From a virus, in IMG/VR virus record IMGVR_UViG_3300037042_006844, positions 1 through 64,000 of that record: a stretch of DNA of 64,000 nt, one strand, 5' to 3'. Below are positions 734 through 61,732 of the stretch, one piece after another. The position numbers and the translations under genes are program-made. How positions within the stretch are numbered: the first letter of the stretch is position 1; every line of letters begins with the position of its first letter. Below the pieces are notes generated by a model. It ran no database searches. It was given only the letters and a program-made list of their open reading frames with translations, and had not been told where the DNA came from.

Positions 734-741
734 TATAAATA
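734..741 (-). promoter_or_regulatory. Putative late promoter, tail tube gene
   Basis: Exact TATTTATA on the sense strand, 25 nt upstream of the tail tube start codon. Confidence 0.65.
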
Positions 742-770
742 TGAATGGAAATCAATATTTGTTGTTTTTT

Positions 771-1934
771 TTATATTTTGTTGATATCCGCATCAATCAA
801 ATTATTAATGGTCGAACGTAATTTGCTGATATATCCACTTGCTCGCAGCAGTTTGAACACCAAATTCTCAGTGCTATATTCACCACCCGTGCTTAAACCT
901 GTTTCGCGCATATTAAATAAACGCTTAACCATGTCTTTGAGAGAATCAACACGATTCGTTTTGATAACAGCGGCGATCTCATCAGTAAATTGTTTGTATT
1001 TCTTTTTGATGGCATCTTTGTCGATTTGCACATCTTCGTGTTTTGGCTGTTTGACCCATTCATTATTGAGAATACTATATACAGCTTGGCTTCGATTTAC
1101 ATCGGCAATGTCTTGGATGTATATTTCGACCGGATGCTCATTGATGTGAATATCGTGATGCTCGTTCCACTTGTTTTTATAGCCATCCACAAGCTTTTTT
1201 ACCAGTTCCTTGTTTGGATCGATCTTGCTGAAATCGATCAAAACATGCAAATCGATATCGCTTGTTGGAGTCCAATTATAACCAGCAGTGCTACCAAGAA
1301 ACAAAACATCCTCGATTGGCGCGGTAAGTTCTGTATCTTTGTAGAAAGTAGTGGCAGTTTTTAGCAGCATATCCAGCATTTCTGGCTTGAGAGTGTTTCC
1401 TTCCCAAATCTCTGGATTAAGAATACTGTTGTATAGTCTGAATTTTTCTTTTACACCCAAAATCTCTTTGAGCTTGTTAATGGTATCAGTGGCACTGGTA
1501 TGTAACAGCCCAATGCCCCCAGCGGCTTTGAATTCATCTATTACGTCCTGTCTGTCATCTATCATGATGGCATCGGGTCCGGCGAACTTAGCCTTATCTT
1601 CCCTGTGAGAAACTAAATTAGGTTTGAAAGTTATACCGTGCTTTTTCAACCATGCTGTTTTTCCGACATTGCTTTCTGGATTGGATGAGTGACTCAAAAT
1701 TTCAGTTGGTAGCTCTTTGACAAAATTGTAAAGAACTTTTCCATCCCTCATCCAAGGCGCATCAGCATAAAAAGCAGGGCTGTTTTTGTGAACAAGCTCA
1801 TAGGTTTGTTTTTTACCATGCTCGGCTTCATATGCTGCTGGAGACCTTCCATCACTGTAATGTTCAAACTGTTTCTCCCAGTCAACTATGACTCCATCCA
1901 TGTCAAGATAGATTTTATACTTACTGTGTATCAT
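771..1934 (-). CDS. HAD phosphatase fused to a Pol beta-type nucleotidyltransferase
   Basis: This 387-aa protein has two recognisable enzymatic domains. Residues 5-160 form a HAD hydrolase like the 5'(3')-deoxyribonucleotidase group: motif I is YLDMDGVIVDW with D11 and D13, a Ser motif lies near residue 81 (LSHSS), and the acidic motif IV is MIDDRQD with D126 and D127. Residues about 205-280 form a minimal nucleotidyltransferase: GSTAGYNWTPTSDIDLHV has the G-S pair and the D226/D228 metal ligands, with a later acidic strand VEIYIQD. The C-terminal 100 residues are helical. Substrates cannot be read from the sequence. A role in end-healing of RNA or DNA, or in nucleotide metabolism, is only inference. 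The gene lies between two structural genes with a late-type motif 7 nt upstream. Confidence 0.75.
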   Translation of the reverse strand: MIHSKYKIYLDMDGVIVDWEKQFEHYSDGRSPAAYEAEHGKKQTYELVHKNSPAFYADAPWMRDGKVLYNFVKELPTEILSHSSNPESNVGKTAWLKKHGITFKPNLVSHREDKAKFAGPDAIMIDDRQDVIDEFKAAGGIGLLHTSATDTINKLKEILGVKEKFRLYNSILNPEIWEGNTLKPEMLDMLLKTATTFYKDTELTAPIEDVLFLGSTAGYNWTPTSDIDLHVLIDFSKIDPNKELVKKLVDGYKNKWNEHHDIHINEHPVEIYIQDIADVNRSQAVYSILNNEWVKQPKHEDVQIDKDAIKKKYKQFTDEIAAVIKTNRVDSLKDMVKRLFNMRETGLSTGGEYSTENLVFKLLRASGYISKLRSTINNLIDADINKI

Positions 1935-1941
1935 CTGTTAT

Positions 1942-1949
1942 AATAAATA
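1942..1949 (-). promoter_or_regulatory. Putative late promoter (variant), HAD-nucleotidyltransferase gene
   Basis: TATTTATT on the sense strand, one mismatch from TATTTATA, 7 nt upstream of the ATG. Confidence 0.5.
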
Positions 1950-2046
1950 TATGCTACCTGCTTATTCTTCTAAGCCTAAGCTTATATTAGCTTCTTTAGT
2001 TCTAGTATTCATATTCTAAATAATTAACTAACTGAGCACTTCAAGC

Positions 2047-2250
2047 TCAATGCTTATAGCTTATGCTTTCTATACCTGGTCTGTCAAGATATAAGAAGTC
2101 CAAACCCACTGTTAAGTCTAATTTTATTTTGCCAGACTGGTATTTATAACGAAACAAGTCAAGAAACTCACATATTTCTTGACTTTCCCTATTTTCAGTT
2201 AAGGGTTCGTAATATGTGTTATCAGAATACTGCTCAAACCTGATGTTCAC
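2047..2250 (-). CDS. Small protein of unknown function, 67 aa
   Basis: This open frame starts with GTG at 2248-2250, because no ATG in frame would give a similar length. The product is mixed acidic/aromatic, with the central segment EICEFLDLFRYKYQSGK and a hydrophobic tail (LDLTVGLDFLYLD). I recognise no domain. The sense strand just upstream reads TACTTATTATAT, a weak relative of the late-promoter motif. The frame fills an otherwise empty 330-nt gap between two minus-strand genes, which is the main reason to keep it. It could be spurious. Confidence 0.4.
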   Translation of the reverse strand: MNIRFEQYSDNTYYEPLTENRESQEICEFLDLFRYKYQSGKIKLDLTVGLDFLYLDRPGIESISYKH

Positions 2251-2268
2251 ATATAATAAGTATGAAGC

Positions 2269-2562: not shown

Positions 2563-2566
2563 ATGA

Positions 2567-2574
2567 TATAAATA
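2567..2574 (-). promoter_or_regulatory. Putative late promoter, coiled-coil protein gene
   Basis: Exact TATTTATA on the sense strand, 4 nt before the start codon. Confidence 0.65.
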
Positions 2575-2599
2575 CCGCAGGTTGCCCCGATCCGCATTT

Positions 2600-4033: not shown

Positions 4034-4046
4034 AATTCGTTATTTC

Positions 4047-6521: not shown

Positions 6522-6528
6522 ACTCTAC

Positions 6529-8608: not shown

Positions 8609-9847
8609 TCATCCTATATAAATGTGGAGTGGAACCTTGGACAACATTTTGTTCATTGCTTCAGATTCTTTGTCTTTATTTTCAAGCTGGTTCACGCGCA
8701 ATGTTTTCTCAAGCATATCTCGAAGTTTTTCAAGCAATGCGTCTTTTTCTTCCTTAGCTTCACTGCGCAGTTCGGCACCATCTAAAGTGACTTCGCCACC
8801 TGGAATTGGCACAGTGCTATATTTTTGCAAAATACGACCCAACGTTTCTTTACACAATGCCAAGAAATACTTTTTGATCCACTGTTTGCCAGGTTGATTG
8901 ATTTTACAATATTGGCAAAATTCATACGGAACATCACTAGGATCGCTCACAAACTGGTATCTCGATCCGCTAAGGAAGTTGGTAATATCCTTATCGCTTT
9001 CAACGTAATAATCGATCCAGATGTTCATATCGTGGTCTGGAATGGGAAAAATACGCAGCATGTTATTACCGAAAATTTCAAATCCAAAATGGCTTTTACG
9101 CACCAAATCGTTGAATTCGATGGCTTGGATACGCTCCAAATCTTCGAAAATTGGGGTCATCAAAAACTGGGTTGCTGGGCTATATCCACTGAAGCCCATT
9201 TCTTGGAGGACGTTTGAATAACTCATACCAGTCATACTGAATGGGTCATAAATACGTGCTACAGCAGGTGGTCGAAAATGAAATACTCGGCGAACTTCGA
9301 TACGAGAACTGCTCAAATGCTCGACATCTTGACCGATCAGTTTATTCAAATCGAACACTTGTTGGCTGCCTTTTGGACCGCCATAATTGCTATGCACGCT
9401 GGCAGTGACAGCAATACTAGTGCGTTTCATGGGGGTTTCTCCACCAACCAATGCTTCACTACCATACTGCTTGCTGAGTTGCACAACAAACGGAAGACCC
9501 GATCCTTTTACACCCATACCAGTGAGGTTTGGATATTGGTCTTGAGATATACCTTGCACATTTACCATGTTATTAACGATATTGAACTCGTTGATAACAC
9601 GATTGTATTCCAAAACCGACTCTTCAAAACATGCGTAGAAATTTACGTCGATCATTTCAATATCGACTATGGGATAACCCAAACGTTTTGCTGCCCACAT
9701 GGCACTCCCGCTGCAATCGGTTTCAAATGTAGACTCGACACCGCTACAGCTTTCGCCCAGATAATAGCCAAATGGCACCGAAGCCGAATTTACGGAACTG
9801 CCGCTTCCCGGCCATCTAACACGATCCTGATCAAGATTAGCACTCAT
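8609..9847 (-). CDS. gp13: Neck protein (gp13-like)
   Basis: The 412-aa product matches T4 gp13 in length class and in its conserved C-terminal half: IWIDYYVESDKDI, then PGKQWIKKYFLALCKETLG and the PIPGGEVTLDGAELRSEA segment, followed by a coiled-coil tail (DALLEKLRDMLEKTLRVNQ). gp13 forms the head-to-tail connector ring under the portal. An exact TATTTATA lies 4 nt upstream of the ATG. The neck, tail completion and fibre genes read in the same direction and may be one late unit. Confidence 0.85.
   Translation of the reverse strand: MSANLDQDRVRWPGSGSSVNSASVPFGYYLGESCSGVESTFETDCSGSAMWAAKRLGYPIVDIEMIDVNFYACFEESVLEYNRVINEFNIVNNMVNVQGISQDQYPNLTGMGVKGSGLPFVVQLSKQYGSEALVGGETPMKRTSIAVTASVHSNYGGPKGSQQVFDLNKLIGQDVEHLSSSRIEVRRVFHFRPPAVARIYDPFSMTGMSYSNVLQEMGFSGYSPATQFLMTPIFEDLERIQAIEFNDLVRKSHFGFEIFGNNMLRIFPIPDHDMNIWIDYYVESDKDITNFLSGSRYQFVSDPSDVPYEFCQYCKINQPGKQWIKKYFLALCKETLGRILQKYSTVPIPGGEVTLDGAELRSEAKEEKDALLEKLRDMLEKTLRVNQLENKDKESEAMNKMLSKVPLHIYIG
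8617..8624 (-). promoter_or_regulatory. Putative late promoter (variant), gp14-like gene
   Basis: CATTTATA on the sense strand, 12 nt upstream of the ATG, overlapping the end of the gp13 coding region. Confidence 0.4.
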
Positions 9848-9851: not shown

Positions 9852-9859
9852 TATAAATA
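9852..9859 (-). promoter_or_regulatory. Putative late promoter, neck module
   Basis: Exact TATTTATA on the sense strand, 4 nt upstream of the gp13-like start codon. Confidence 0.65.
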
Positions 9860-9887: not shown

Positions 9888-10049
9888 CTATTCTATTGTT
9901 GGGTCGTTTTCGTCCAAATAGATAGTCGCCAATATTTTATAATCGGAAACGGGAGCCGTTTTAGGCGCAGTCTCCCGACGCAATTTTTCTTCTTTGAGCT
10001 TTTTGGCTCGGAGGACTTTTTGTAGAGTGGTCTTTACTTTCTGATTCAT
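9888..10049 (-). CDS. Small basic protein of unknown function, 53 aa
   Basis: I place the start at the ATG at 10047-10049 (MNQKVKTTLQ), not at an in-frame ATG 48 nt upstream. The exact TATTTATA motif at 10069-10076 lies between the two and would leave the upstream codon outside the transcript. The product has a very basic helix in its first 30 residues (VLRAKKLKEEKLRRE) and an acidic C-terminus (DENDPTIE). I recognise no family. Confidence 0.55.
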   Translation of the reverse strand: MNQKVKTTLQKVLRAKKLKEEKLRRETAPKTAPVSDYKILATIYLDENDPTIE

Positions 10050-10068: not shown

Positions 10069-10076
10069 TATAAATA
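10069..10076 (-). promoter_or_regulatory. Putative late promoter, 53-aa protein gene
   Basis: Exact TATTTATA on the sense strand, 19 nt upstream of the chosen ATG; the only in-frame upstream ATG lies before it. Confidence 0.6.
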
Positions 10077-11564: not shown

Positions 11565-11572
11565 TATTTATA
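11565..11572 (+). promoter_or_regulatory. Putative late promoter, lipoprotein gene
   Basis: Exact TATTTATA on the plus strand, 4 nt before the ATG. Its orientation relative to the gene matches the minus-strand cases, which shows that the motif is directional. Confidence 0.65.
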
Positions 11573-11576: not shown

Positions 11577-12530
11577 ATGAAGAAGTCATTTACAACTCTG
11601 GTTCTACTATTGTTTTTGTCTGGATGCGGCACAATCATTCCCGATAACCAAAATGGTAGTCAAAAAAAGATCGCCAACAAAACTGAAGCGGTCACTGATG
11701 CCAAAAGCAAAATTGCCGCAAACACCGAAGAAAAATTGATACAAGTATCAGGACTAAGCTACGGAGTTGGCTACAGTCTCGATCACGTTCCGTTGACCAA
11801 CAAGATCAATGAAATTGAAACAGCCAAAGAGTTGAACAGCAGAATCGTCAGCATTGCTGGTTCTCCAGATTTGGATGAAATGAACCGAATCAAACAAACT
11901 GTAGACCTTTTGAACAGCGAAGTCAAGAAAGAAAGGGACAAAGGAGCCAAACTTTTGACAGACAAAGATCAGGAGATCATGATTGTTCAAAAAGAAAAAG
12001 AAGCCCTTAAAGCCAACTTGGAACGTAAAGTTGAAGACTTGACCAAGGCTGCAAAGAAGCAAGCCGAAGAATCTGATAGCAACAAAGTGGTGATTGAAAA
12101 CGTCAATAAATGGTTTGGATTGGGTGCCGTTTTCTATGGTCTCAAACGATTTGTCACTACTTGTATTGTGGGCATTTTGGTGTTTGGTGTTGCATTTTTG
12201 GTGCTGCGCCTTCTTGCCGCAACAAATCCAATCGCCGCAAGCATTTTCTCGGTGTTCAACATCATTGGTGCTGGAGTGATTCACACGGTGCGTGGTATAG
12301 CACCAAAAGCATTGAATTTTAGTGGGTTTTCATCCACAAACGAAGTTCAAAAATACAAAAACACTTTGGCTAAATTGGTGGACAACATTGAAGAAGTTCA
12401 GATTAAAAACACTGCCCCAGATGCAACCATCTCACTAAAAGATTTGCTTGATCATTTTGACAAAGAATTGGATCAAGCTGATAAAGATGTGATTACAGAA
12501 CTCAAAACTGAATTGCGATGGAAAAAATAA
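11577..12530 (+). CDS. Lipoprotein with coiled coil and C-terminal membrane segments (spanin-like?)
   Basis: The 317-aa product starts with a lipoprotein signal peptide (MKKSFTTLVLLLFLSGCG) with lipobox LSGC and Cys17 as the probable acylation site. Residues 95-170 form a long charged coiled coil (EVKKERDKGAKLLTDKDQEI). Residues about 188-242 contain two hydrophobic segments (CIVGILVFGVAFLVLRLL and ASIFSVFNIIGAGVI). The C-terminal 70 residues are helical and charged. An outer-membrane lipid anchor joined by a periplasmic coiled coil to an inner-membrane segment is the layout of unimolecular spanins, which disrupt the outer membrane at lysis. This protein is longer than known u-spanins, so that role is inference. 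A superinfection-exclusion lipoprotein is an alternative. Confidence 0.7.
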   Translation: MKKSFTTLVLLLFLSGCGTIIPDNQNGSQKKIANKTEAVTDAKSKIAANTEEKLIQVSGLSYGVGYSLDHVPLTNKINEIETAKELNSRIVSIAGSPDLDEMNRIKQTVDLLNSEVKKERDKGAKLLTDKDQEIMIVQKEKEALKANLERKVEDLTKAAKKQAEESDSNKVVIENVNKWFGLGAVFYGLKRFVTTCIVGILVFGVAFLVLRLLAATNPIAASIFSVFNIIGAGVIHTVRGIAPKALNFSGFSSTNEVQKYKNTLAKLVDNIEEVQIKNTAPDATISLKDLLDHFDKELDQADKDVITELKTELRWKK

Positions 12531-12535: not shown

Positions 12536-12564
12536 TTGACGTTCACACAACTCTGTGCTAATAT
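12536..12564 (+). promoter_or_regulatory. Sigma70-type early promoter, Mom-like gene
   Basis: TTGACG (12536-12541), a 17-nt spacer and TAATAT (12559-12564) nearly match the bacterial consensus. Only 6 nt separate the -10 box from the ATG, so the transcript would be leaderless or almost so. Confidence 0.7.
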
Positions 12565-12570
12565 AAAAAC

Positions 12571-13344
12571 ATGGCAGAGTCCTATTGCGACACATCACTA
12601 ATTTATTTGGAGCCAATCAGCAAACCGATTGCCCGCAGCATGATCGAAAAAAACCACTATAGTCACAAGTGGTCTTGCTGCACCGTGGCTTACGGGGTTT
12701 TCTACAAAGAATACATCGAAAGCACATTTTTCGGTGGTTATCAGAGTAAACTAATCGGAGTATTGGTTTATGGAAATGCAGTGGGAAGATGCGCCAGCAA
12801 AAGCATCAGTCCTCTATTAGCCAACGATAATGTATTTGAACTCACCCGCTTGTGGGTCGCAGATGGCTATGGAAAAAACATAGAAAGTTATTGTATAGCT
12901 GAAAGCTTTCGGTTGTTAAACAAAGAATATCCCAAAATCAAATGCATATTGACCTATGCTGATAGCGAAGAAGGTCATCGTGGCATCATCTATCAAGCAT
13001 CTGGATTTATTTATCAAGGGGACAATTACGTCGATATTGCAATTATGCCGAACTACAGTGTAAGTTTGGACGGTCCTCCGAGCTACAAATGGATTCATAG
13101 TCGCAGTGTGTATAACCGATGGAAATCACACAATGTTGACAAGCTGAAAGAACGAATCGGCAAAACGTTTTGGCGCAAACGTGAAAGCGGAAAGCATCGC
13201 TATGTCAAATTCATTTGTGGCAAAATTGAAAACAAACGACTCAGAAAATCTTTGAAACACAAAGAATTGCCGTATCCAAAAGGTGCGATTTTCAAAGAAG
13301 TTGTCACTGAACACGTTGTGGACAGTTCACAGTCTTTCTTCTAA
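12571..13344 (+). CDS. Mom-like DNA modification protein (GNAT fold)
   Basis: The 257-aa protein shows the pattern of the phage Mu Mom family, GNAT-fold enzymes that hypermodify adenines in phage DNA and protect it from restriction. Visible landmarks are NHYSHKW (residues 28-34), the ELTRLW strand (90-95), a helix IAESFRLLNKEYP, and YADSEEGH (129-136) followed by GIIYQASGFIYQG (138-150). A basic C-terminal extension (residues 180-240) may bind DNA. It has a host-type promoter instead of the late octamer, which fits early synthesis. A different Mom/GNAT-related activity cannot be excluded. The gene converges on the minus-strand gene at 13351 with a 6-nt gap. Confidence 0.75.
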   Translation: MAESYCDTSLIYLEPISKPIARSMIEKNHYSHKWSCCTVAYGVFYKEYIESTFFGGYQSKLIGVLVYGNAVGRCASKSISPLLANDNVFELTRLWVADGYGKNIESYCIAESFRLLNKEYPKIKCILTYADSEEGHRGIIYQASGFIYQGDNYVDIAIMPNYSVSLDGPPSYKWIHSRSVYNRWKSHNVDKLKERIGKTFWRKRESGKHRYVKFICGKIENKRLRKSLKHKELPYPKGAIFKEVVTEHVVDSSQSFF

Positions 13345-13350: not shown

Positions 13351-13728
13351 TTAATTTTTGTAAAACTTCAATGTTTTTACCACTTTATCCAGACCCAAAT
13401 TTTTGAAGTTCAAATCGTCTTTCTTTTTACCCTGAAAGCTTTCGTGGTGGATGCTTACATCAAACCTTTTCATATCTTTGTCAAGAGGAATCACTGTAGC
13501 AGAATAATATGACACGGTGTTACTGTTTGGCAATACCAGAAACATTCCGAATCCTTTATCATATTTTTTAGTCCACGCATCTTTTCCAGACTCGAAATAT
13601 TTTGTCTCAGACACGTTGACCCCTCTTACATCATCTTGTGATCGGCGCAGTTTGGAAATTATTGTTTGAATAAGAGTGGGTTCATCGATCACTTCTTTGA
13701 TCAGTTGTATCAATTCTGTTTTTGTCAT
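13351..13728 (-). CDS. Unknown protein, 125 aa
   Basis: The product begins with a short amphipathic helix (TKTELIQLIKEVIDEPTLIQ), a start often seen in small T4-like phage proteins. A beta-rich part follows (GFGMFLVLPNSNTVSYYSATV, FDVSIHHESFQ) and the protein ends in a basic helix. I recognise no catalytic motif. A TATTTATT late-type motif lies 5 nt before the ATG, so it is probably a late gene. It lies downstream of the endonuclease-methyltransferase and its terminator. Confidence 0.65.
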   Translation of the reverse strand: MTKTELIQLIKEVIDEPTLIQTIISKLRRSQDDVRGVNVSETKYFESGKDAWTKKYDKGFGMFLVLPNSNTVSYYSATVIPLDKDMKRFDVSIHHESFQGKKKDDLNFKNLGLDKVVKTLKFYKN

Positions 13729-13733: not shown

Positions 13734-13741
13734 AATAAATA
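13734..13741 (-). promoter_or_regulatory. Putative late promoter (variant), 125-aa protein gene
   Basis: TATTTATT on the sense strand, 5 nt upstream of the ATG and directly after the terminator of the preceding gene. Confidence 0.5.
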
Positions 13742-13779: not shown

Positions 13780-15768
13780 TTAAATTTCAACAATGGCCTC
13801 TCGTTTATTTGCAGAATTTTTATCAAAATGACTTGTGTTTGATACTATATACGAGTTTATATTGGTCCAATTCAGCCGTTCGCTTAATTCGCTGGACACA
13901 TTAATGTAACATTTCTTACCCGAATATTTTTCAATTGCGGCGATGAACGTATTTTTCCAATCATTAAACGATCCGTGCGCAGTGCTGTTGCTGTAAATCT
14001 CAAGATCGTAATACGGAATGCTAGTAAAAATCAAATCAAACCGACGATCTGTTGAAAACTCCTCAAATTTACAATTGTGAATTTCTACATTGGTTAAATT
14101 TGCATTTTTAATAAAAGTCTGCAATTCACCGAATGTTTCAACGTTTGGTTCACATCCGATATACGTGCCATTTGGATATTTACTCTTAAATCCCAATAAT
14201 CTGCCGCCAAATCCACAACACGGGTCCAATACCACAGGCGAGGCCGTGTCCCCCAAATATTTGTGATATATTGCGGCTGCTAATAGCGGCTTAAAAAATG
14301 AAACGGTTATTCTTCTGGCAGACAAACCCTGTATCAATTGGTGTAAACTAAAATCAAATATTTCGCCACTATTATTACAACCGATTCTGTATTTTATAAC
14401 ATCGTGCATGATAGATTCGTCCTCCCACGCAGTTTTCGGCGCAACGTTACCTTTATAACTCGCTCCCCAGTAAGAATGGAAATGATGCTTCAAATAATTA
14501 TTGCCGATTGAATAAATATTGTTTGAAAATTCATTGGATTGCGCATTGTAAATCGATGTATAATCATATTCTCTAATTTTGCGCATAACCAATTCTATGC
14601 TCTCATATAACGGGGGATATGGAAATTCCGGTTGGAAATTGCGAATGAATTTTTTAAGCAACCACAAAAATGACTCAACGTAAGGTTGACCTTTGTCGAT
14701 AATGCAATTTGAAAAATATTCTTTATTTATTACCACATCGTCATATCCTAATACCAAATGGTTAATTTTATTATAACATGCTATATTTTTGATCAAATCG
14801 GTCTCACTGCGCGAGTTCGTTATGAGTGCAGACAAATCACTTTCGCGAATTCTATAAATATTATCGATGGTATTATTTTTTTGGCGATCCGATATAACAC
14901 TAGATAGCAGCTTAAAATTCAAATTTTCAATATTTGTTGGATGCCAATATTCGCCATCGATTTCAATGCACATATTGTGATCCTGTAAATAAAAATCAAC
15001 AGACGCGGACCTATCACCACAATCAACTACGTATGGATGTTTATATTTAATATTAAGAGAATTTAATAATGATTCAAAACATAGTTCTGGTTCTGTATCA
15101 ATAGTATTTATGGCACATTTTCTATTAACTGCACTATCCGACATTTTTTTGACAGCAGTTCGTTTATGCGTTTTACCATACATCGGATTATTGATTCCTA
15201 TTGAATTGTGCCCGGTAATATAATCGATTCTATATGGGTAGTAGTTTAACAACTTAACCGTTTTACCACACCCACATTCACACAGTGGGTGTGTATTATT
15301 AAATATGTGTTGTTTGACATAGGTCGGTTTGTCCAATTTGTGTATTTTTTTAATGTGCCAGCCCAGCAAATTACCGGAAGCAAATTGTTCTCCACAGATC
15401 ACACACGAATGTTTATTTTCTGTAGACATTAACCTATTTTTATATTCAATATTTTTAAGTTTGGATGAGCGATATTCACCACAGCGAATAACATAATCAT
15501 CTGGCGATATGCTATGTGTGTCCCTCAGATGAACAAAAAATCCAACCGAAGAATACTTGTTATTGCACAATTTACACTCAATTTTATTGACAGACCTAAT
15601 ATGCGTTTTACTTTTTTGTTTTCTAAACTCGCCGTATTTACATGCGTATTTATCGGATGTCAGTGCATGTTTCCATTTCAAATGACTTGAAAAGCTGTAT
15701 AATGAAATTTTTTCGCCGCAAATATCACAAGATTTCAACGACGGTTTATTAACAATAGCGCGACTCAT
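13780..15768 (-). CDS. Homing endonuclease-DNA methyltransferase fusion
   Basis: The 662-aa protein (start chosen at the ATG at 15768, just after the promoter) has four parts. Residues 14-143 carry three Ros/MucR-type zinc fingers (CDICG...HLKWKH, CKLCN...HLRDTH, CVICG...HIKKIH). A CECGCGK knot and a NUMOD3-like motif NNPMYGKTHK follow near 163-200. Residues about 226-312 form an EDxHD/Vsr-type nuclease core (ELCFESLLNSL, ASVDFYL, CIEIDGEYWH, IYRIRESDL). Residues 365-662 form a methyltransferase with SAM motif DPCCGFGGRLLG (515-526) and catalytic TSIPYYD (582-588), related to the D/N/S-PPY motif of amino-methyltransferases. It sits directly behind the capsid gene with its own promoter and terminator. 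The fusion suggests a self-protecting homing element or a one-chain restriction-modification enzyme (inference). Confidence 0.8.
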   Translation of the reverse strand: MSRAIVNKPSLKSCDICGEKISLYSFSSHLKWKHALTSDKYACKYGEFRKQKSKTHIRSVNKIECKLCNNKYSSVGFFVHLRDTHSISPDDYVIRCGEYRSSKLKNIEYKNRLMSTENKHSCVICGEQFASGNLLGWHIKKIHKLDKPTYVKQHIFNNTHPLCECGCGKTVKLLNYYPYRIDYITGHNSIGINNPMYGKTHKRTAVKKMSDSAVNRKCAINTIDTEPELCFESLLNSLNIKYKHPYVVDCGDRSASVDFYLQDHNMCIEIDGEYWHPTNIENLNFKLLSSVISDRQKNNTIDNIYRIRESDLSALITNSRSETDLIKNIACYNKINHLVLGYDDVVINKEYFSNCIIDKGQPYVESFLWLLKKFIRNFQPEFPYPPLYESIELVMRKIREYDYTSIYNAQSNEFSNNIYSIGNNYLKHHFHSYWGASYKGNVAPKTAWEDESIMHDVIKYRIGCNNSGEIFDFSLHQLIQGLSARRITVSFFKPLLAAAIYHKYLGDTASPVVLDPCCGFGGRLLGFKSKYPNGTYIGCEPNVETFGELQTFIKNANLTNVEIHNCKFEEFSTDRRFDLIFTSIPYYDLEIYSNSTAHGSFNDWKNTFIAAIEKYSGKKCYINVSSELSERLNWTNINSYIVSNTSHFDKNSANKREAIVEI

Positions 15769-15784
15769 GTGTATAACTATACAC
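15769..15784. repeat. Perfect inverted repeat over the promoter of the endonuclease-methyltransferase
   Basis: GTGTATA and TATACAC arms are separated by 2 nt, immediately before the ATG and overlapping the -10 box. It could be an operator, or a hairpin at the 5' end of the mRNA. Confidence 0.6.
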
Positions 15785-15804
15785 GATACGCTAAGAAAAT
15801 GCAA
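15776..15804 (-). promoter_or_regulatory. Sigma70-like promoter, endonuclease-methyltransferase gene
   Basis: The sense strand reads TTGCAT (15804-15799), a 17-nt spacer and TATAGT (15781-15776). The ATG follows after 7 nt, so the transcript would be nearly leaderless. Confidence 0.6.
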
Positions 15805-17634: not shown

Positions 17635-17683
17635 AATATTATTTTCCTATCTTTTTGTTGGTTTGTTTTTACTCGCAAACAAT

Positions 17684-18811
17684 TTACTTCGTGATTCCTG
17701 CGAGCAATTGGAATCTTGAAGCCATCGCATCGGCTTGAGTTGCCACAATCATGGACTCAGGTCTGGTGGATGATACTGGTTTGCTTGCCAAACCTTCGGT
17801 GATAGTTGTTACGGTCGCATTAGATTTCTTTTTCGCAACCGATCCACCGGCATTATTTGATTCGGCTAAAACTGTATAAGCAAGCTTGATTTCACGCAAT
17901 GTTTTGGTGAGATCAAACGTGTTGATGACCCTCAACTTTTGAGCTTCGGTCAAATTCTTGTTTTTGAAAAGCTTGTTGGTATAAAGCAATTTTGCGTTGA
18001 GCAAATTGCTTTCTTCCAAAACGGTCTTAACATACTTGAGACCTTCATTGGCTTCAGAAAGACGTGCTTTCAATACTTCGTTCTCTTCGTTCAGAGCAAT
18101 CAATGCTTCAACCATTTCCTCATTGCTGATATCGCAATCTTCGGTTGGTGAAGGAACTTGTCCAGCTGCTGGAGCCGCTGGAGCCGCTGGGGCAACTGGG
18201 AGTCCAGTGTTAGGATCAATTTGCCCTGCTGCTGGAACTGGCGGCACAACTGGTGCTGGTGCTGCTCCTGGAACGCCATCTTCTTCAAGCTCGGCGAGAA
18301 GTTCGTCGAGGCTAAACTCTTCATCAGCGGGAACGTCGTCGAGGCTAAACTCTTCATCAGCGGGAACGTCGTCGTCGGATACTACAGGTTCGTCGCCCAT
18401 TTGTGCGCCACAACCGTCATCACCACATTCAGTGGTTGGGGTTTCGAGTTCGGCGAGAATCTCGTCAAGCTCTTCACTGGTGATTTCCATGCTCTCTTCC
18501 ATAGTTGCATCAAACTCTTGTTTGCCTGCTGGAGTGCTGTTTTTTGTTGCTGAAGCGGATGGTTTCACAGGATGTTGTTTTGAAGCAACGTTGCCTTTTT
18601 CGCCACCGATTTTTGAAGTAGAAAGTTTTTCTTCAATTTTCTCTCCGTCATCAGCATCTTGCTGCTCTTCTGAATCTTCCTTGAGTTTTTCTGCGAACAT
18701 GTTTTTCATGCTCTTTGCGAAATTTTCCTCAAGAAAAGTTTTTGCGTTCGCAATTGCAGTTTCACGAACTGCTTTTGCGTCGGCGATGCTCTCTTTTAAT
18801 AGATCGCTCAT
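17684..18811 (-). CDS. gp22: Prohead core scaffold (gp22-like)
   Basis: The 375-aa protein lies directly upstream of the capsid gene, the T4 position of gene 22. It is very acidic in its middle (DDVPADEEFSLDELLAELEE, then a Pro/Ala-rich stretch) with helical ends, as expected for a scaffold that fills the prohead and is degraded by gp21. The N-terminal helix (LLKESIADAKAVRETAIANA) and the C-terminal 130 residues (NEENEVLKARLSEANEGLKY) are coiled-coil-like. An 11-residue acidic unit, VPADEEFSLDD, is tandemly duplicated. AAAGGAC precedes the ATG; a TATTTATT motif lies 95 nt upstream. Confidence 0.8.
   Translation of the reverse strand: MSDLLKESIADAKAVRETAIANAKTFLEENFAKSMKNMFAEKLKEDSEEQQDADDGEKIEEKLSTSKIGGEKGNVASKQHPVKPSASATKNSTPAGKQEFDATMEESMEITSEELDEILAELETPTTECGDDGCGAQMGDEPVVSDDDVPADEEFSLDDVPADEEFSLDELLAELEEDGVPGAAPAPVVPPVPAAGQIDPNTGLPVAPAAPAAPAAGQVPSPTEDCDISNEEMVEALIALNEENEVLKARLSEANEGLKYVKTVLEESNLLNAKLLYTNKLFKNKNLTEAQKLRVINTFDLTKTLREIKLAYTVLAESNNAGGSVAKKKSNATVTTITEGLASKPVSSTRPESMIVATQADAMASRFQLLAGITK
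18305..18370 (-). repeat. Perfect 33-bp tandem duplication in the scaffold gene
   Basis: Positions 18305-18337 and 18338-18370 are identical and encode two copies of an acidic 11-residue unit. Confidence 0.9.
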
Positions 18812-18947: not shown

Positions 18948-18955
18948 TATTTATA
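18948..18955 (+). promoter_or_regulatory. Putative late promoter, 182-aa protein gene
   Basis: Exact TATTTATA on the plus strand, 5 nt before the ATG. Confidence 0.65.
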
Positions 18956-18960: not shown

Positions 18961-19509
18961 ATGCTAGCACGCTCAGATAAACAACCACGATATTTCCAAT
19001 TCGAAAGAATGATCAAAAAAGGAGATGTATCACCCAATGATTACATCAAAATTCGCGAAATTGTTCAACGTTTGCGAGAAGAAGAAAGCTCGGCTGAATA
19101 TAGCATCAGTAAGATGCGAGAGGTCGAGGGAAAAACTTTTGATCAACTACTGAACGAAAACACAGGAGTTCGTTTTAACAAGCAAGAACTACTTGCTTTT
19201 CAATCAAAGCAAAAAGGGTTCGGTGGATTTGGCAAAGTAAATTTTACTCACAAGCAAGACCGAAACGAAATCGCTGCTGAAATAAGCAGCAACGAATCCA
19301 ACAAAACCTACGTTTTCAAAAAACTCGCAAACAACGAAAGCAAAGGCATGTTCAACTATGCATGTTTTATCGAAGTGCGTGGTGCCACTGAGGAAAAAAG
19401 CAAACCAAAAATTGTTTATACACTCAGCACAATTTTCAGCAACAATGACGATCAAAACACCAAAGTCCTAACAGACTTCATCAACCGAATCAACAACTAT
19501 GGACTATAA
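18961..19509 (+). CDS. Unknown protein, 182 aa
   Basis: One of only four plus-strand genes. The product is soluble and charged, with an N-terminal helical part (ERMIKKGDVSPNDYIKIREI) followed by a mixed region (QKGFGGFGKVNFTHKQDRNE) and a beta-rich C-terminal half (MFNYACFIEVRGA, PKIVYTLSTIFSNN). I recognise no family. Its last 11 nt overlap the start of the next gene, so the two are probably translationally coupled. The island is inserted between the scaffold and protease genes and is closed by a bidirectional terminator. Confidence 0.75.
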   Translation: MLARSDKQPRYFQFERMIKKGDVSPNDYIKIREIVQRLREEESSAEYSISKMREVEGKTFDQLLNENTGVRFNKQELLAFQSKQKGFGGFGKVNFTHKQDRNEIAAEISSNESNKTYVFKKLANNESKGMFNYACFIEVRGATEEKSKPKIVYTLSTIFSNNDDQNTKVLTDFINRINNYGL

Positions 19510-20408: not shown

Positions 20409-20416
20409 TATAAATA
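20409..20416 (-). promoter_or_regulatory. Putative late promoter, 156-aa protein gene
   Basis: Exact TATTTATA on the sense strand, 4 nt upstream of the start codon. Confidence 0.65.
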
Positions 20417-22963: not shown

Positions 22964-22971
22964 TATAAATA
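22964..22971 (-). promoter_or_regulatory. Putative late promoter, 288-aa protein / protease operon
   Basis: Exact TATTTATA on the sense strand, 14 nt upstream of the ATG. Confidence 0.65.
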
Positions 22972-28037: not shown

Positions 28038-28048
28038 AATGTATATGA

Positions 28049-30558: not shown

Positions 30559-30566
30559 TATAAATA
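30559..30566 (-). promoter_or_regulatory. Putative late promoter, ligase-like gene
   Basis: Exact TATTTATA on the sense strand, 4 nt upstream of the ATG, just after the terminator of the homing endonuclease. Confidence 0.65.
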
Positions 30567-32143: not shown

Positions 32144-32170
32144 ATACAATACTCCTTATCTAATAGATAC

Positions 32171-36295: not shown

Positions 36296-36303
36296 TATAA
36301 ATA
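36296..36303 (-). promoter_or_regulatory. Putative late promoter, tail sheath gene
   Basis: Exact TATTTATA on the sense strand, 51 nt upstream of the ATG. This is the longest leader behind an exact motif, which shows that the motif acts apart from the start codon. Confidence 0.7.
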
Positions 36304-42514: not shown

Positions 42515-42522
42515 AATAAATA
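42515..42522 (-). promoter_or_regulatory. Putative late promoter (variant), 162-aa protein gene
   Basis: TATTTATT on the sense strand, 20 nt upstream of the ATG. Confidence 0.5.
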
Positions 42523-44953: not shown

Positions 44954-44961
44954 TATAAATA
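44954..44961 (-). promoter_or_regulatory. Putative late promoter, propeller protein gene
   Basis: Exact TATTTATA on the sense strand, 4 nt before the ATG with GGAA between. Confidence 0.65.
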
Positions 44962-45016: not shown

Positions 45017-46147
45017 TTATGCTGGGCAGCCTACTTTAACAACCCAGTAAGTGTCTGGCAATGGAGAGTATATACGTAATGTTGCGGTTGGTGTAGTAGT
45101 ATTTTTAACAAATTGCGCAGTTCCATCTCCAGGTCCCGAACAAATTGCGCCATAAAATCCATATGCCGCCAACTCAGGAATAGGAGCTCCTGGTAGCAAT
45201 GCGCTGCTTCTCCAACCAGTCATAACGACAGTAACTCCCTCATAAATAATTTCAAACATATCTGGAACAGCATATGCTGAATACGTCATAGTAACAACCC
45301 CAGTGGCAGATCCAAGAGTTATTTCATAATCGTAATAGTATGGGGCTGCTGCTGAAAATCCATATGCAAAAAGAGTGTTGCAAGAAACTGGACCGGGCGG
45401 TGCCACCGTTGGCGGCACTGGACCAGGCGGAACTGGTTCTATTGGGCAGCACGGACCCACAATGGAGGGATTTGCCAAATATGATCCCAACCCGCAGACG
45501 CTTACTGGAACAGCCAGATCATCCGAATCAGAAATCAATCCATATTTGTTGATAAAAAATGACCCAGATAGTCTAAGATTATAATTACCATCATCGACGA
45601 TGTCGCCCGGAATATCGCCACTTTGGTTGTTGATAACCAATGTATTTGGGCGAATTTTATCGCCAGTTTGATCAACCCGCAAATTCAATGCTGAAAAATC
45701 GTTGGTAAGATGTAAAGATGCCCCATCCGTGTCATATCCATCGAAACCAAAAATATTGTAAGCGTTGTTGTAGTTGTTGTAATACATTTTTTGGACTGTA
45801 TTAAACACTTGGCGTTGGTAGGTGCCGTCTAAATTCATTGGGTTGGACACGGCATTATACTGAGCACTACCGCTTGGATAAAACACCGAGCTAGAATGAA
45901 CATATTTACCAATTTGAAAATCGATGGGGTCGAGAAATTGGCTGACGGCTAAAAACCCGCTCACCGGCTCTCTGGCACAACTACCAGAAACGTTGTTGTT
46001 GCACGAAGCAATAGGAGTAACGAGCGGAAATAGATCATCGCCTTCGTTGGCAAGAATCAGATCATTCAAAACACTATTGAGTGTCTGCTCCTTGGCAATC
46101 GTAAACGACGTTACAATTATGTCTTGATTTCTAAAGAATTTGATCAT
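45017..46147 (-). CDS. Tail/baseplate protein with Pro-rich hinge, 376 aa
   Basis: The N-terminal part (MIKFFRNQDIIVTSFTIAKE) is related in style to the start of the next upstream protein (MIFSQFTSDDIVVGRINQVS), so both may dock to the same baseplate site. Residues 50-225 are mixed and Tyr/Asn-rich. A proline hinge (PVPPGPVPPTVAPPGPV, about residues 237-253) leads to a C-terminal beta-sandwich of about 115 residues ending TLRIYSPLPDTYWVVKVGC, possibly a receptor-binding head (inference). A TATTTATA motif lies 5 nt before the ATG, with AGGG overlapping the gap. Confidence 0.65.
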   Translation of the reverse strand: MIKFFRNQDIIVTSFTIAKEQTLNSVLNDLILANEGDDLFPLVTPIASCNNNVSGSCAREPVSGFLAVSQFLDPIDFQIGKYVHSSSVFYPSGSAQYNAVSNPMNLDGTYQRQVFNTVQKMYYNNYNNAYNIFGFDGYDTDGASLHLTNDFSALNLRVDQTGDKIRPNTLVINNQSGDIPGDIVDDGNYNLRLSGSFFINKYGLISDSDDLAVPVSVCGLGSYLANPSIVGPCCPIEPVPPGPVPPTVAPPGPVSCNTLFAYGFSAAAPYYYDYEITLGSATGVVTMTYSAYAVPDMFEIIYEGVTVVMTGWRSSALLPGAPIPELAAYGFYGAICSGPGDGTAQFVKNTTTPTATLRIYSPLPDTYWVVKVGCPA

Positions 46148-46152: not shown

Positions 46153-46160
46153 TATAAATA
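46153..46160 (-). promoter_or_regulatory. Putative late promoter, 376-aa tail protein gene
   Basis: Exact TATTTATA on the sense strand, 5 nt upstream of the ATG. Confidence 0.65.
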
Positions 46161-54814: not shown

Positions 54815-54815
54815 A

Positions 54816-56807
54816 TTATACCACGAGTCCTTTAATATCAGTCGTTGGGAATTTGACCTCAAAAATCGATGGGTCTTTCGATGGATACACAATGTTGTTT
54901 TGTGTGGCTATATCGATGTTATAAGCAATCGGGGAATAATCACCATCGTCAATGGTCAAATTCTTCACAGTAATATTAATTACCGATTGAACTCCTTCAT
55001 TTTTCATGATTTCGAACATCAACTGGCTAAGATTAATTGGTTGGTTGAAGCCCCAACTATCAATTGCGAAAAATTCTTGAACTGAAGCAATACATGTGTT
55101 GAGCACATCGCGCTTATTGAAACCAGCGAACACAGTGATTTGGAAATCAATACCAATGTTGATGATATATCCGTCGATCACGTTGAATTTATCAGTCAAA
55201 ATTTTGTATTGGCTCAGATAGTTTTTAAGGTTCAACAACGTAGCTGCGTTGATCTGAGACAAATGTTTGTTGATATCATAACCAAGCAAATACAAATTGT
55301 TGGTGAACGGATTGTTGCTTTCCAAAAACTTTCGACGGTCCAAAGGATTGAGCGGATTCAAATTGAGGGTCTCATTTTGTGCTGCCGAACCACTAATAAC
55401 GCCACTAATCAATCCAGTATATGATACTTGGCGTGTAGAATTTGACTGAACAAATGCTTTTGCAACGCTGCCAAACTGAGGACTCATCGAATAAACTCGC
55501 AGCAAAATATCTTCTTCTGTGATGATACGGTTTTGCGATGAAAAATTGGCAATGGCGTTTTGGCGGATTTCATCGTCCGTTTCTGGTCCGGCACCTCCTG
55601 TTGCAGCGATTGGGTTGTTGACCCGCAAACTGTTTTTAATGTTGTTTAACAGAGTAATCTGGCTGTCAGTTAGACCACTGGTGTCATTGAGATAATCAAC
55701 GGCTCCAATCGTGGTAATTTCGCCAGAATTGATGTTGGACACAAGACCACCACCCACAATGTAGTTAATCGTCAACACCGTGTTGGATGGTGATACTCCG
55801 TAGCTGTTGCTCTTCAAAACGTTGGTTCCATCCAAACTAATGTTCAGATTTCCAAGGTTCGACATTCCCACACCCACGTTTGTTGGGTTAGGAACAATCA
55901 CGGTGTTGTCAAAGTTTTCTATATTGGCACCAAACTGCAAATAGGTGTTGTTGTTTTCATCTATAAACGTTGTGAAACGTTTCTCCGTTCGCAGATATTT
56001 AAGCAGTTTTGGAGTTTCAGATTGATATTTGGACAGCGTTTGGTTGTTCAACGGAACATTGTCAACGGCGAGGGGCAGCGTTTCTTGCGCCAAATAATTG
56101 ACCTCGTAGTAGTTGTTATTGTTGCTGTCAACAACGCTAACAATTTTCAAAATGTTGGATGAGTCCAGTTTTATTTGCAAAAATGGCGTTGCGGCACCCA
56201 CACTAATTTGGGTCGATGCCAACCGCCCCGAAAATGCTTTAGTGGTTTTTTTGATCAAATAAAACTGAGGTGCTCCCGTTTCATCACGACTATAAACGCT
56301 AATTTCCCGTGGTGAAAATGCCGTGTTTTGGCTAAAATCTACGCTGTCATCAATCAAAAACGGCACGTTGGAAACACTATTGAATGACGTATATGGTTTC
56401 AGAATCAAACAATAGTTTTCATCTGGAACATACTCACCGTCCATTGTCCCCACCCGCTTCGATGGAAGCAATTGAAACAATTCCAGATTTGTTGTGGCTG
56501 CCGATGCTACTTTTGGTTTGTATCCAAGGTATGCCGCTTGGTTGATTATGTTTCTGCGGTCAGTGGCGAACTGAATGAAACTTTCTTTGAATTGTTGATC
56601 GGTATAATATGAAAGAATATCACCAACATATGCGGCTTGCTCGATGAAGATTTGCCCTGGAGAACTTTCACTAAAATCCCTATAATTTTGAGGATAGTAT
56701 TGTTTAGTGAAGTCGATCAGTTGTTGCTTCAAAGACGCAAAATCACGGCTGACGTATATAACGTCTTTTGTGTTCGCCCGGAACGTCTTATTAGTTATTT
56801 GTGCCAT
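54816..56807 (-). CDS. gp6: Baseplate wedge protein (gp6-like)
   Basis: The 663-aa protein matches T4 gp6, the wedge subunit that forms the core ring of the baseplate. Diagnostic is the N-terminal 110 residues (YVSRDFASLKQQLIDFTKQY, SSPGQIFIEQAAYVGDILSY, NIINQAAYLGYKP), followed by a later ATGGAGPETDDEIRQNA and RIITEEDILLRVYSMSPQFG. These are shared with the J-type wedge family. The ATG overlaps the gp25 stop by one base (TAATG), so translation is coupled. Confidence 0.92.
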   Translation of the reverse strand: MAQITNKTFRANTKDVIYVSRDFASLKQQLIDFTKQYYPQNYRDFSESSPGQIFIEQAAYVGDILSYYTDQQFKESFIQFATDRRNIINQAAYLGYKPKVASAATTNLELFQLLPSKRVGTMDGEYVPDENYCLILKPYTSFNSVSNVPFLIDDSVDFSQNTAFSPREISVYSRDETGAPQFYLIKKTTKAFSGRLASTQISVGAATPFLQIKLDSSNILKIVSVVDSNNNNYYEVNYLAQETLPLAVDNVPLNNQTLSKYQSETPKLLKYLRTEKRFTTFIDENNNTYLQFGANIENFDNTVIVPNPTNVGVGMSNLGNLNISLDGTNVLKSNSYGVSPSNTVLTINYIVGGGLVSNINSGEITTIGAVDYLNDTSGLTDSQITLLNNIKNSLRVNNPIAATGGAGPETDDEIRQNAIANFSSQNRIITEEDILLRVYSMSPQFGSVAKAFVQSNSTRQVSYTGLISGVISGSAAQNETLNLNPLNPLDRRKFLESNNPFTNNLYLLGYDINKHLSQINAATLLNLKNYLSQYKILTDKFNVIDGYIINIGIDFQITVFAGFNKRDVLNTCIASVQEFFAIDSWGFNQPINLSQLMFEIMKNEGVQSVINITVKNLTIDDGDYSPIAYNIDIATQNNIVYPSKDPSIFEVKFPTTDIKGLVV

Positions 56808-57208
56808 TAAATTCTGTTGGTCGTGACTTCGACATTGGTTGTAGCCGTCGTCTTGTTATACGTAAATACCACACTTATAAATATCTTGTTCTTATCAGTA
56901 TTCTCAGGTTGGTTTGTCGCTATTTTAACTTTTACGTCATTAATAAGAACTCCTGCTAAAAATCGGTCAATATCTCGCTGAACGCAATCGACAATGATAC
57001 TTTTGTTCACTTCCAGATCAGTTTGCTGAAACAATAATCTATACAAACTTGACCCAAATTCGTTGTTAAAACGCCTTTCGCCTGGCTGGGTGAGCAAAAG
57101 ATTCCGAATATTGTCGGCTACTTGGTCAACAGTAGCCGTATTGGTCGCAAAGTATCCCTCCTTGCCCAATTGAATCGGTAAACTCAGTCCAAGTGCTTGT
57201 GTAGCCAT
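56807..57208 (-). CDS. gp25: Baseplate wedge protein (gp25-like)
   Basis: The 133-aa protein is of the gp25/GPW family, wedge components at the sheath-baseplate joint that start sheath polymerisation. The hallmark is VDQVADNIRNLLLTQPGERR followed by NNEFGSSLYRLLFQQ. The later RDIDRFLAGVLINDVKVKI is also typical. Its position directly before gp6 is conserved in contractile phages. Confidence 0.92.
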   Translation of the reverse strand: MATQALGLSLPIQLGKEGYFATNTATVDQVADNIRNLLLTQPGERRFNNEFGSSLYRLLFQQTDLEVNKSIIVDCVQRDIDRFLAGVLINDVKVKIATNQPENTDKNKIFISVVFTYNKTTATTNVEVTTNRI

Positions 57209-57211
57209 ATG

Positions 57212-57697: not shown

Positions 57698-57767
57698 AGT
57701 ATCTCTATTATATATAATTATTGGCGTTTGGCAGAATTCTTCAATTTTAATATAGTGGTTCTGGGTT

Positions 57768-59645: not shown

Positions 59646-59650
59646 AATAT

Positions 59651-61369
59651 TTATGTTGTGAATTCGAATTCGATTTGAACTGGACCTTCACGTCGATTGC
59701 GTCCTTTGAAATCTCCGAGAACACCAGCACCAGAAACAGTATTGATAATAACTGGGTCTGCGCACTCGCCCCCACTACCAGTTGGTTTGACACCATCGGC
59801 TCCTGGGGCATAGCCGCCGCCCGTTACGTAAACGCGTCTACTCAACGTTTTATGTAAATTATCACGCAACAATTTAAGTTTGATTTGCTGAACTGAAATT
59901 TGTGTTTGGTCTTGCACCGCATCTTTTGTGTTTACATCGGTAATTTGTCCAGCATCCTCGTGACCGTGCGGATGAGGATGGACGTGATGATACCAATGAA
60001 CGTGGTCTAGGAGCCAATTGCAAAGATCATATAGCCAATCGACCGTGGTTTGCCCCAACAATGCTGGTTCGTTTGTCTCACCATACTGACCTAAAAATAT
60101 TTGCGGTGCGTTGATGCAAGCGATACGATTGGTTGTGAGCACAATTTGATCGTTGGCATCCACCGTATACTCGGCATCTGTGGCTACACCATAGCGGCGT
60201 TTGCTGAAATGCAACGATTCCCCAAAACGACTGCTTAACACAATTCTGTCAGAATTGATAATCGTTTGCTCACCATTCAACACTGGCATTTGGAAACTGG
60301 TTGCCCCAGGAGGATTATATTGAACCTGTTCTTCAGTTCCATCACTCTGTTTGGTTATACCAAACATGCTTTTATAAACAGTCGTTGTCCATCTACTTAC
60401 AATCGGACCACTATTAATTTCTATCGTGGTTCCATCATTGTTGATATCTTCTTCAATTTGACCGCCATAATTTTTCTCACGGGGAGTGACCACGGGGATT
60501 GGAGGAAGTTTTGGGTGCAATTGCTGTGGCTTATCCAACGCAATATTTCTTTGCCGATTGCGAATGATAAGTCTCGGGTTGCCATAACCACCGTTCACAG
60601 AGTCTCTGAACAAGTTTGCATTCAATGCATACGATGGATTGCTGGACCTATCGTTTTGGCGACTGTCGTTGTAAGCCGTAAAACGAATGCTTTGACCAAA
60701 TCGGCTTTCTAATACAGTATCTCCTTCAAACTTTCGAACGCTACGAATAAACGGATTGAGAAGAAAATAGTCCCCAAGGAATCCAGTTTTTGTGATCGTT
60801 TTGAAAAATGGATGTGATAGATAGCTTTGTCGCAGTGGGTCTGGATTTGGCACCGATGGAATTGCACTGGAATTATTGTTGCTCAGTGCCTGCTCAGTGA
60901 CATAATCCGCATTGGTTCCAGTAAAATTAAATCTGTTAAACGGTTTGGTGTAGTAATAGTTTCCCGCCAATTTCAACACCATCACTTGTTCATTCAACAA
61001 TGGGTATTGTGTAACGGTATTATCCAATGGCATTGCCCAAGGCAGTTTATCCAATGGAGTTTTCTTTTCCAGTTCCAGGATGCGAATCTTGACTCGTCCG
61101 ATATAGCTGTAATCAATATCTTTGCTGTTGGGAACTTCATTTTTGTAATTGACTGGAATTTGCTGCGGGTTGACAGTTATTGGACCTTTCGAACGAAGGC
61201 TGTCTGGGTTTTTACTAAAAAACGGATGTTGATCATTGAGAATAACATCCACCACAACCGCAAGTTGGAAATTTGAGTTTTCGCCCGTCAAATTATCTGA
61301 GCCAGAACTTCTGCCAGATGGATTCTGAACTTGTAGGTATTTTGAAATGTTTGTTGATGAATCGCTCAT
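59651..61369 (-). CDS. gp5: Baseplate central hub/spike protein (gp5-like)
   Basis: The 572-aa protein lies in the hub part of the baseplate cluster. Residues 85-165 have an OB-fold-like layout (YSYIGRVKIRILELEKK, YPLLNEQVMVLKLAGNYYYT) as in gp5/VgrG hubs. A beta-repeat region follows, with two related segments SRFGQSIRFTA and SRFGESLHFSK. Near residue 455-475 stands a histidine cluster (HVHWYHHVHPHPHGHED), reminiscent of metal-binding spike tips. No lysozyme domain as in T4 gp5 is seen. Spike/hub is the best call on position and fold; strict homology to gp5 is unproven. Confidence 0.65.
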   Translation of the reverse strand: MSDSSTNISKYLQVQNPSGRSSGSDNLTGENSNFQLAVVVDVILNDQHPFFSKNPDSLRSKGPITVNPQQIPVNYKNEVPNSKDIDYSYIGRVKIRILELEKKTPLDKLPWAMPLDNTVTQYPLLNEQVMVLKLAGNYYYTKPFNRFNFTGTNADYVTEQALSNNNSSAIPSVPNPDPLRQSYLSHPFFKTITKTGFLGDYFLLNPFIRSVRKFEGDTVLESRFGQSIRFTAYNDSRQNDRSSNPSYALNANLFRDSVNGGYGNPRLIIRNRQRNIALDKPQQLHPKLPPIPVVTPREKNYGGQIEEDINNDGTTIEINSGPIVSRWTTTVYKSMFGITKQSDGTEEQVQYNPPGATSFQMPVLNGEQTIINSDRIVLSSRFGESLHFSKRRYGVATDAEYTVDANDQIVLTTNRIACINAPQIFLGQYGETNEPALLGQTTVDWLYDLCNWLLDHVHWYHHVHPHPHGHEDAGQITDVNTKDAVQDQTQISVQQIKLKLLRDNLHKTLSRRVYVTGGGYAPGADGVKPTGSGGECADPVIINTVSGAGVLGDFKGRNRREGPVQIEFEFTT

Positions 61370-61380
61370 ACGGAGTTGTA

Positions 61381-61719
61381 TTAGCTTTTTGAGATGGAGA
61401 TCACGTTTTCCATCAATTGTTTGCGATCTTCGTCACTCAGAAGCATCGCTCCTCCCTCACCAGACGCATCTCCTTTGGAAACCAGTTTTTGAACGATGGC
61501 TGCAAGTTTAACGAGTTGCTCGTCGTTTTTCACGCCGACATCGTAATAATCTTTGATGAGAGGAACAATAATGACCGCGTCATTGACTGTTTTGATCAAC
61601 GTCCGCAATTCAGAAATAAGGATATCAATTTGATCTTTTTTGCTCTCCGAATTCTTAACGATATCTTTGCATAAGCCAGAAAAGTTCTTACCTTTATAAA
61701 TTTCAAAGTTTGTATCCAT
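61381..61719 (-). CDS. Conserved T4-like protein of unknown function, 112 aa
   Basis: An all-helical small protein with the conserved core CKDIVKNSESKKDQIDILIS, RTLIKTVNDAVIIVPLIKDY and GVKNDEQLVKLAAIVQKLVS. I recall near-identical patterns in unnamed proteins close to the hub genes of T4-like marine phages. It has the same length as T4 gp33, the late-transcription co-activator, but no sequence likeness that I can see. The start follows a TATTTATT motif by 5 nt. Confidence 0.75.
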   Translation of the reverse strand: MDTNFEIYKGKNFSGLCKDIVKNSESKKDQIDILISELRTLIKTVNDAVIIVPLIKDYYDVGVKNDEQLVKLAAIVQKLVSKGDASGEGGAMLLSDEDRKQLMENVISISKS

Positions 61720-61724
61720 ATGTC

Positions 61725-61732
61725 AATAAATA
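61725..61732 (-). promoter_or_regulatory. Putative late promoter (variant), 112-aa protein / hub operon
   Basis: TATTTATT on the sense strand, 5 nt upstream of the ATG and directly after the gp55 terminator. It may drive the whole hub and wedge series. Confidence 0.55.

Follow-up and report, generated by a model that had tools for sequence, protein, structure and literature searches.

A directional octamer, TATTTATA, stands upstream of genes on both strands of the 64,000-nucleotide (nt) stretch of viral DNA analysed here (the window, bases 1-64000 of the 303,564-bp, or 303.6-kb, IMG/VR virus record IMGVR_UViG_3300037042_006844, here also G000). Judging from sequence, its consensus, [A/C]TATTTAT[A/T], is quite probably the late promoter of a T4-related jumbo-phage lineage, read by a gp55-like sigma factor and yielding many leaderless mRNAs. 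A directional, T4-related late promoter is well supported because orientation, location, phylogenetic footprinting, adjacency to terminators, the absence of a -35 element and the sigma-2 protein encoded alongside all speak for it. A full-text search of the open-access literature found no paper describing TATTTATA as a phage promoter.

The counts below use 297 genes called in the record from codon usage and start-codon type alone, the motif playing no part. The window holds 20 exact copies of TATTTATA, against 3.3 +/- 1.9 expected from dinucleotide shuffles, and none of 100 shuffles reached 20. An earlier, sequence-only reading of the window had described a directional octamer upstream of genes, and this was borne out: 12 exact copies lie in non-coding upstream regions in the sense direction and none in antisense. 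Eight of the 20 lie outside the upstream set that it described, namely inside genes (sense at 8520, 14853, 26192 and 53018; antisense at 3831 and 44402), at 2141 with no sense gene close by, and at 56876. TATTTATA is the top enriched 8-mer in the 60 nt before starts of the whole record, with 40 of 65 copies lying 0-60 nt upstream of a called start (1.7 expected) and few there in the opposite orientation. Equal frequencies in both orientations, which it had named as counter-evidence, were not seen: pooled non-coding upstream sequence of the record gave 40 sense and 7 antisense copies, with 1.6-5.0 expected under Markov models of order 1-3. The roughly nine one-mismatch copies that it had included in the directional class did not behave in this way (12 sense, 11 antisense in non-coding upstream regions of the window), and we rejected the one-mismatch family as a whole. 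Genome-wide, the only such variants leaning to sense are TATTTATT (16 sense, 5 antisense), TAGTTATA (7/0), TATGTATA (8/2) and TACTTATA (6/2); apart from TATTTATT, these are a few changes at position 3.

The same orientation bias was found in relatives, where counts pooled without de-duplication were 161 sense and 4 antisense in IMG_55a, 81/5 in IMG_55far, 27/3 in Flavobacterium phage immuto and 16/1 in phage Mel-JY01; relatives binned into metagenome-assembled genomes (MAGs) gave 15 and 0. Position -1, on which the sequence-only reading was silent, is A or C in 95% of the 40 exact sites, and 215 distinct sites from relatives independently show the same preference. No -35 element or conserved upstream block was seen in the 40 aligned sites (within 40 nt upstream) or in the 215 aligned sites from relatives. 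As far as sequence can tell, the TATTTATA element is a single-element promoter like the T4 late promoter. The gap from motif to ATG peaks at 3-8 nt (mode 4-5 nt) and tails off to about 70 nt, rather than being spread evenly over the 4-95 nt given earlier.

A second promoter class, TTGAC-N17-19-TAnnnT, precedes 46 genes concentrated at 100-160 kb of the record (40 sense and 5 antisense in non-coding upstream regions). None of these genes has a late site, and the two classes are thus mutually exclusive. The -10 element ends 6-10 nt before the start in 26 of the 46. A sigma70 promoter with its -10 element at this distance has its +1 at or beside the AUG; therefore this class provides an internal standard for regarding the late sites as leaderless too. 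In both classes the distance from the -10 element to the AUG (mode 4-5 nt for late sites, 6-10 nt for the sigma70-type class) matches the distance expected to +1, and by this analogy both look leaderless. The sigma70-type class would be early, given its resemblance to the sigma70 promoters of hosts; a gene of this class (242793, minus strand) adjoins clamp-loader and PolB genes. If the leaderless reading is true, we are dealing with a double-stranded DNA phage lineage that largely dispenses with 5' leaders. Between the downstream promoter element and the RNA start of Flavobacterium johnsoniae lie 4-5 nt (PMC6847099), and the Bacteroidota housekeeping promoter TTG/TANNTTTG resembles the geometry assumed here but differs in sequence. 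This host -7 promoter (TANNTTTG; TA(H)(H)TTTG) was itself rejected as a candidate, since it is not enriched in the record (7 sense, 8 antisense).

The T4 late promoter TATAAATA, served by gp55, gp33 and the gp45 clamp, is likewise a single 8-bp -10-like element without a -35 element, standing in the sense direction before virion genes. Six of eight positions, including A-12 and A-8, are identical between it and TATTTATA in the same orientation, whereas positions 4 and 5 (-10 and -9) are TT instead of AA. The likeness to the reverse complement of the T4 element, noted earlier, is thus better regarded as a coincidence, the motif being same-strand TATAAATA with A to T at -10 and -9. The jumbo-phage element also differs in its A/C preference just before the octamer and in standing usually 3-8 nt from the ATG, as against mostly 24-28 nt in a T4 control: the same pipeline applied to 50 kb of T4 returned TATAAATA in 7 sense and 4 antisense positions. 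The exact T4 octamer is not sense-enriched in the record. Since the exact consensus and the protein architecture both depart from the T4 type, we file the element as a variant of the T4-type late promoter. The upstream element of Rhodothermus phage RM378, TTATTTAA, has the TATTTA core in common with it, stands after a terminator in at least one case and comes with a weak sigma homolog, but in a small sample (50 kb) its last positions are AA rather than TA and its leaders are longer.

The putative reader is a gp55-like protein of 327 aa with a variable, Lys-rich N-terminus (about residues 1-105), a sigma-2-like domain (108-212) and an extra helical (four-helix) domain at the C-terminus (231-323); the T4 gp55 family is about 185 aa long and has no sigma-4 domain. 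AlphaFold2 predicted confident helices at 111-212 and 231-323, with low confidence for the first 105 residues. Homologs were found in more than 100 IMG/VR loci, in Mel-JY01, immuto and LR756508, and weakly in RM378. By hhalign against five classical gp55 proteins it aligns to region 2 (E 4.5e-4, probability 33%), its top Foldseek matches in PDB and viral libraries are mostly of the sigma70 family at modest E-values, and a sigmaE region 2 target gave a TM score of 0.59-0.63; the modelled fold matches sigma region 2. The immuto homolog is collinear with phrog_234 at E 0.5. In the cryo-electron microscopy structure of T4 gp55 (PMC7892883), A-12 stacks on Y97, A-8 is bonded by T99, and A-9 touches N13 and H95. 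Besides its sigma-2 character, the window protein shares matching Tyr and Ser/Thr contact residues with T4 gp55: the counterparts of Y97 and T99 in the alignment are Y189 and S191, both invariant across 61/61 sequences, with Ser replacing Thr. F187 takes the place of H95, and no Asn stands at the position nearest N13, so that the -9 contacts are not kept. Contacts kept at the unchanged -12 and -8 and not at the changed -9 would, as a hypothesis, fit the change in the promoter. An altered N-terminus had been suggested earlier as a source of changed specificity; the extension does exist, but it is disordered by prediction, it varies, and Mel-JY01 and immuto essentially lack it while keeping the motif; it is therefore unlikely to set specificity.

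A review of T4 (PMC2988020) asks why no fused late sigma exists, and the extra C-terminal domain makes the gp55-like protein a candidate for one. Folded alone, this domain did not match sigma-4, so that such an identity is not supported. It is conceivable, though we rather doubt it, that large T4-related phages of one widespread lineage combine two largely leaderless promoter classes with an unsplit late sigma, in which sigma-2 and its own sigma-4-like or RNA polymerase-binding C-terminal domain would do the jobs of gp55 and gp33 in one.

Several points weigh against a late promoter read by this protein. Its link to gp55 is remote, the hhalign match being as given above and the PDB matches in Foldseek having E-values of 0.03 or worse, and the protein itself matches no PHROG or Pfam family: searches of the record with PHROG 234/12791 and Pfam Sigma70_r2 gave no match, and phmmer with T4 gp55 and the RM378 sigma against the open reading frames (ORFs) found nothing beyond self. 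LR756508 has a homolog of 44% identity in which the pocket residues are retained, but almost no TATTTATA upstream of genes in 100 kb. Since three of the five classical gp55 sequences used in the comparison likewise have Phe at position 95, F187 is not enough by itself to account for the change at -9. A simple caller supplied the gene starts, many of the IMG/VR loci behind the pooled counts are near-duplicates, and the 'late' timing derives from association with virion genes. In LR756508, a huge phage, the sigma homolog lies at 100339-100944, and AACTTAA is mildly enriched upstream instead. We tried this phage as a covariation test, and with the motif lost and the pocket residues unchanged it lends covariation no support.

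The remote link to gp55, and a sigma homolog without the motif in LR756508, also favour the best-surviving alternative, a promoter read by a host alternative sigma rather than by a phage factor. We nonetheless consider this improbable. The late motif is common to phages whose other promoters differ, sigma70-like TTGAC/TAnnnT in the record and TTG-N18-22-TANNTTTG in Mel-JY01, which points to a phage factor as the reader, and it co-occurs with a conserved phage sigma-2 protein. Relatives of the record include a Flavobacterium phage and several Bacteroidota MAGs, yet its other promoters are sigma70-like; by megablast, the window's first 25 kb matched no phage. As a separate observation, Mel-JY01 (PP395634) is annotated as a Microcystis phage, its Bacteroidota-type promoters number 11 sense and 0 antisense, and its close relatives are Bacteroidota phages; its host label may deserve checking.

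Somewhat less probable again is that the motif is a translation-initiation signal, an AT-rich start-codon context and not a promoter. The mode at 3-8 nt before the ATG would suit such a signal, as would the scarcity of Shine-Dalgarno-like sequences, which are no commoner at starts than at random positions, and upstream start-codon context does tune initiation in Flavobacterium (PMC6847099). However, orthologous upstream regions in many IMG/VR relatives keep the motif while its position relative to the ATG slides (9-23 nt among orthologs of gene 22083-22949), and in immuto most gaps measure 10-34 nt, in Mel-JY01 23-43 nt. Operon position argues the same way, the motif being nearly absent from operon-internal starts: exact copies precede 3% of starts whose co-directional gap is at most 10 nt, as against 39% of divergent starts with gaps of 31-100 nt. 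Sites also often follow terminators: one lies just upstream of 4 of 55 sites and of 21 of 215 pooled sites, where shuffles gave 0.15 and 0.3. On sliding spacing and operon position we rejected the translation-signal reading. The sequence-only reading had overlooked that the peak in spacing implies leaderless mRNAs. Some leadered genes carry a conserved AAGGA upstream in ortholog comparison. Virion genes with a sense motif upstream include tail tube, head-tail adaptor and scaffold-region genes; no motif precedes the major capsid gene in any of 39 distinct relatives or the protease gene in any of 28, and both genes look operon-internal.

Jumbo phages such as AR9 and phiKZ have short AT-rich late promoters, and the jumbo genome brings to mind a phage-encoded RNA polymerase, either phiKZ/AR9-like or single-subunit, as the user of the promoter. 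We think this very unlikely. The AR9/phiKZ promoters are read by phage multisubunit polymerases, and no cellular-type beta/beta' domains were found in the 303.6-kb record, which may be incomplete, with 14/14 controls detected; the search for single-subunit polymerases detected no control. Furthermore, the record encodes a conserved sigma-2-like protein. It also contains T4-type PolB and clamp-loader homologs, and the PF02916 clamp search was negative with a weak control. Given these homologs and no beta/beta' match, late transcription by host RNA polymerase and a clamp-coupled late sigma is plausible. Least probable of all is an RNA-processing site within longer transcripts: RNase E commonly targets AU-rich single-stranded RNA, but the sites directly follow intrinsic terminators and occur at divergent starts, and a fixed 9-mer preceded by the A/C preference at -1 is more promoter-like.

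For the late promoter, we therefore favour a working model in which the gp55-like sigma would bind host RNA polymerase and recognise the element through its sigma-2 domain, stacking A-12 and contacting A-8 as T4 gp55 does but accepting T for A at -10 and -9. On the T4 pattern, RNA would start about 5-6 nt downstream of the element, at most sites on or beside the A of the start codon. Many late mRNAs would then be leaderless and the remainder would have leaders of up to about 60 nt, while other genes would use the separate sigma70-type promoter, likewise close to the ATG. The element offers a testable late-promoter code for an abundant aquatic phage group with known relatives infecting Bacteroidota, and makes late operons predictable from sequence. 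Because a two-base change in the promoter comes together with gp55-like proteins that form a natural series, the specificity of sigma-2 at -9/-10 can be put directly to the test. Sites in the window are listed in Table 1.

Table 1. Copies of the putative late element and associated features in the window.
Feature	Position	Strand	Remarks
TATTTATA	734..741	-	25 nt before tail tube gene 217-708 (PHROG tail tube); motif kept in 4/4 orthologs
TATTTATT	1942..1949	-	before gene 771-1934; TATTTATW kept in 2/3 orthologs
TATTTATA	2567..2574	-	4 nt before gene 2269-2562; motif in 0/6 orthologs
TATTTATA	9852..9859	-	4 nt before gene 8609-9847 (head-tail adaptor match); kept in 14/17 distinct orthologs
TATTTATA	10069..10076	-	uncertain; before small possible ORF at about 9888-10049, gene not called
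TATTTATA	11565..11572	+	4 nt before ATG of 11577-12530; kept in 8/8 orthologs
Other promoter class, example: TTGAC + TAATAT -10-like hexamer	12536..12570	+	ends 6 nt before ATG of 12571-13344 (Mom-like)
TATTTATT	13734..13741	-	5 nt before gene 13351-13728; hairpin and T-run precede
TATTTATA	18948..18955	+	5 nt before gene 18961-19509; TATTTATW kept in 12/12 orthologs
TATTTATA	20409..20416	-	4 nt before gene 19934-20404, adjoining gp21-like protease gene; TATTTATW in 15/16 orthologs
TATTTATA	22964..22971	-	14 nt before gene 22083-22949; TATTTATW in 25/25 distinct orthologs, gaps 9-23 nt
TATTTATA	30559..30566	-	4 nt before gene 29502-30554; about 15 nt after intrinsic terminator stem
TATTTATA	36296..36303	-	51 nt before gene 32258-36244 (1328 aa)
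TATTTATT	42515..42522	-	20 nt before gene 42006-42494
TATTTATA	44954..44961	-	4 nt before gene 42526-44949
TATTTATA	46153..46160	-	5 nt before gene 45017-46147
TATTTATA	56876..56883	-	possible promoter; 68 nt before gene 54816-56807
TATTTATT	61725..61732	-	5 nt before gene 61381-61719, after hairpin and T-run, as often in relatives; TATTTATW in 61/71 distinct orthologous upstream regions
gp55-like late sigma candidate, 327 aa	61790..62773	-	hhalign, AlphaFold2, Foldseek

Elsewhere in the record, a conserved element of about 50 nt (tggtcggaattcctcctcttggctaaagccgaagaggtttccttcctcc) lies shortly before starts at 142989 (+), 215670 (-), 224800 (-), 236397 (-), 243603 (-), 259173 (+), 266337 (-) and 269516 (-). 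Its stem around GGCTAAAGCC varies in a compensating manner, and the one stretch searched had no Rfam match; Rfam searches of the window and of record stretch L012 gave none. A transfer-messenger RNA gene with the tag AKENVVSYDFSYENVAAVAA is found at 72191-72571 (-), and more than 30 tRNA genes lie at about 76-111 kb and 166 kb.

Within the window, the Mom-like DNA modification gene at 12571-13344 (+; PHROG 1384, E 1.9e-44) has a sigma70-type promoter. HNH/homing endonuclease genes sit within the structural gene region at 13780-15804 (-) and 30635-32149 (-), and the leader of the major capsid gene contains a hairpin, CTCGCA...TTTGCGAG, at 17635-17704 (-), of which TTTGCGAGT is conserved in close relatives. 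The large terminase (TerL) occupies two ORFs at 26829-28882 (-): the first ends with an intein-like start (CLWGDSTVKI...), and the second opens with intein-like sequence ending VSHNC, after which the terminase resumes. From its sequence this looks like an atypically split intein, presumably comparable to the AceL-TerL type.

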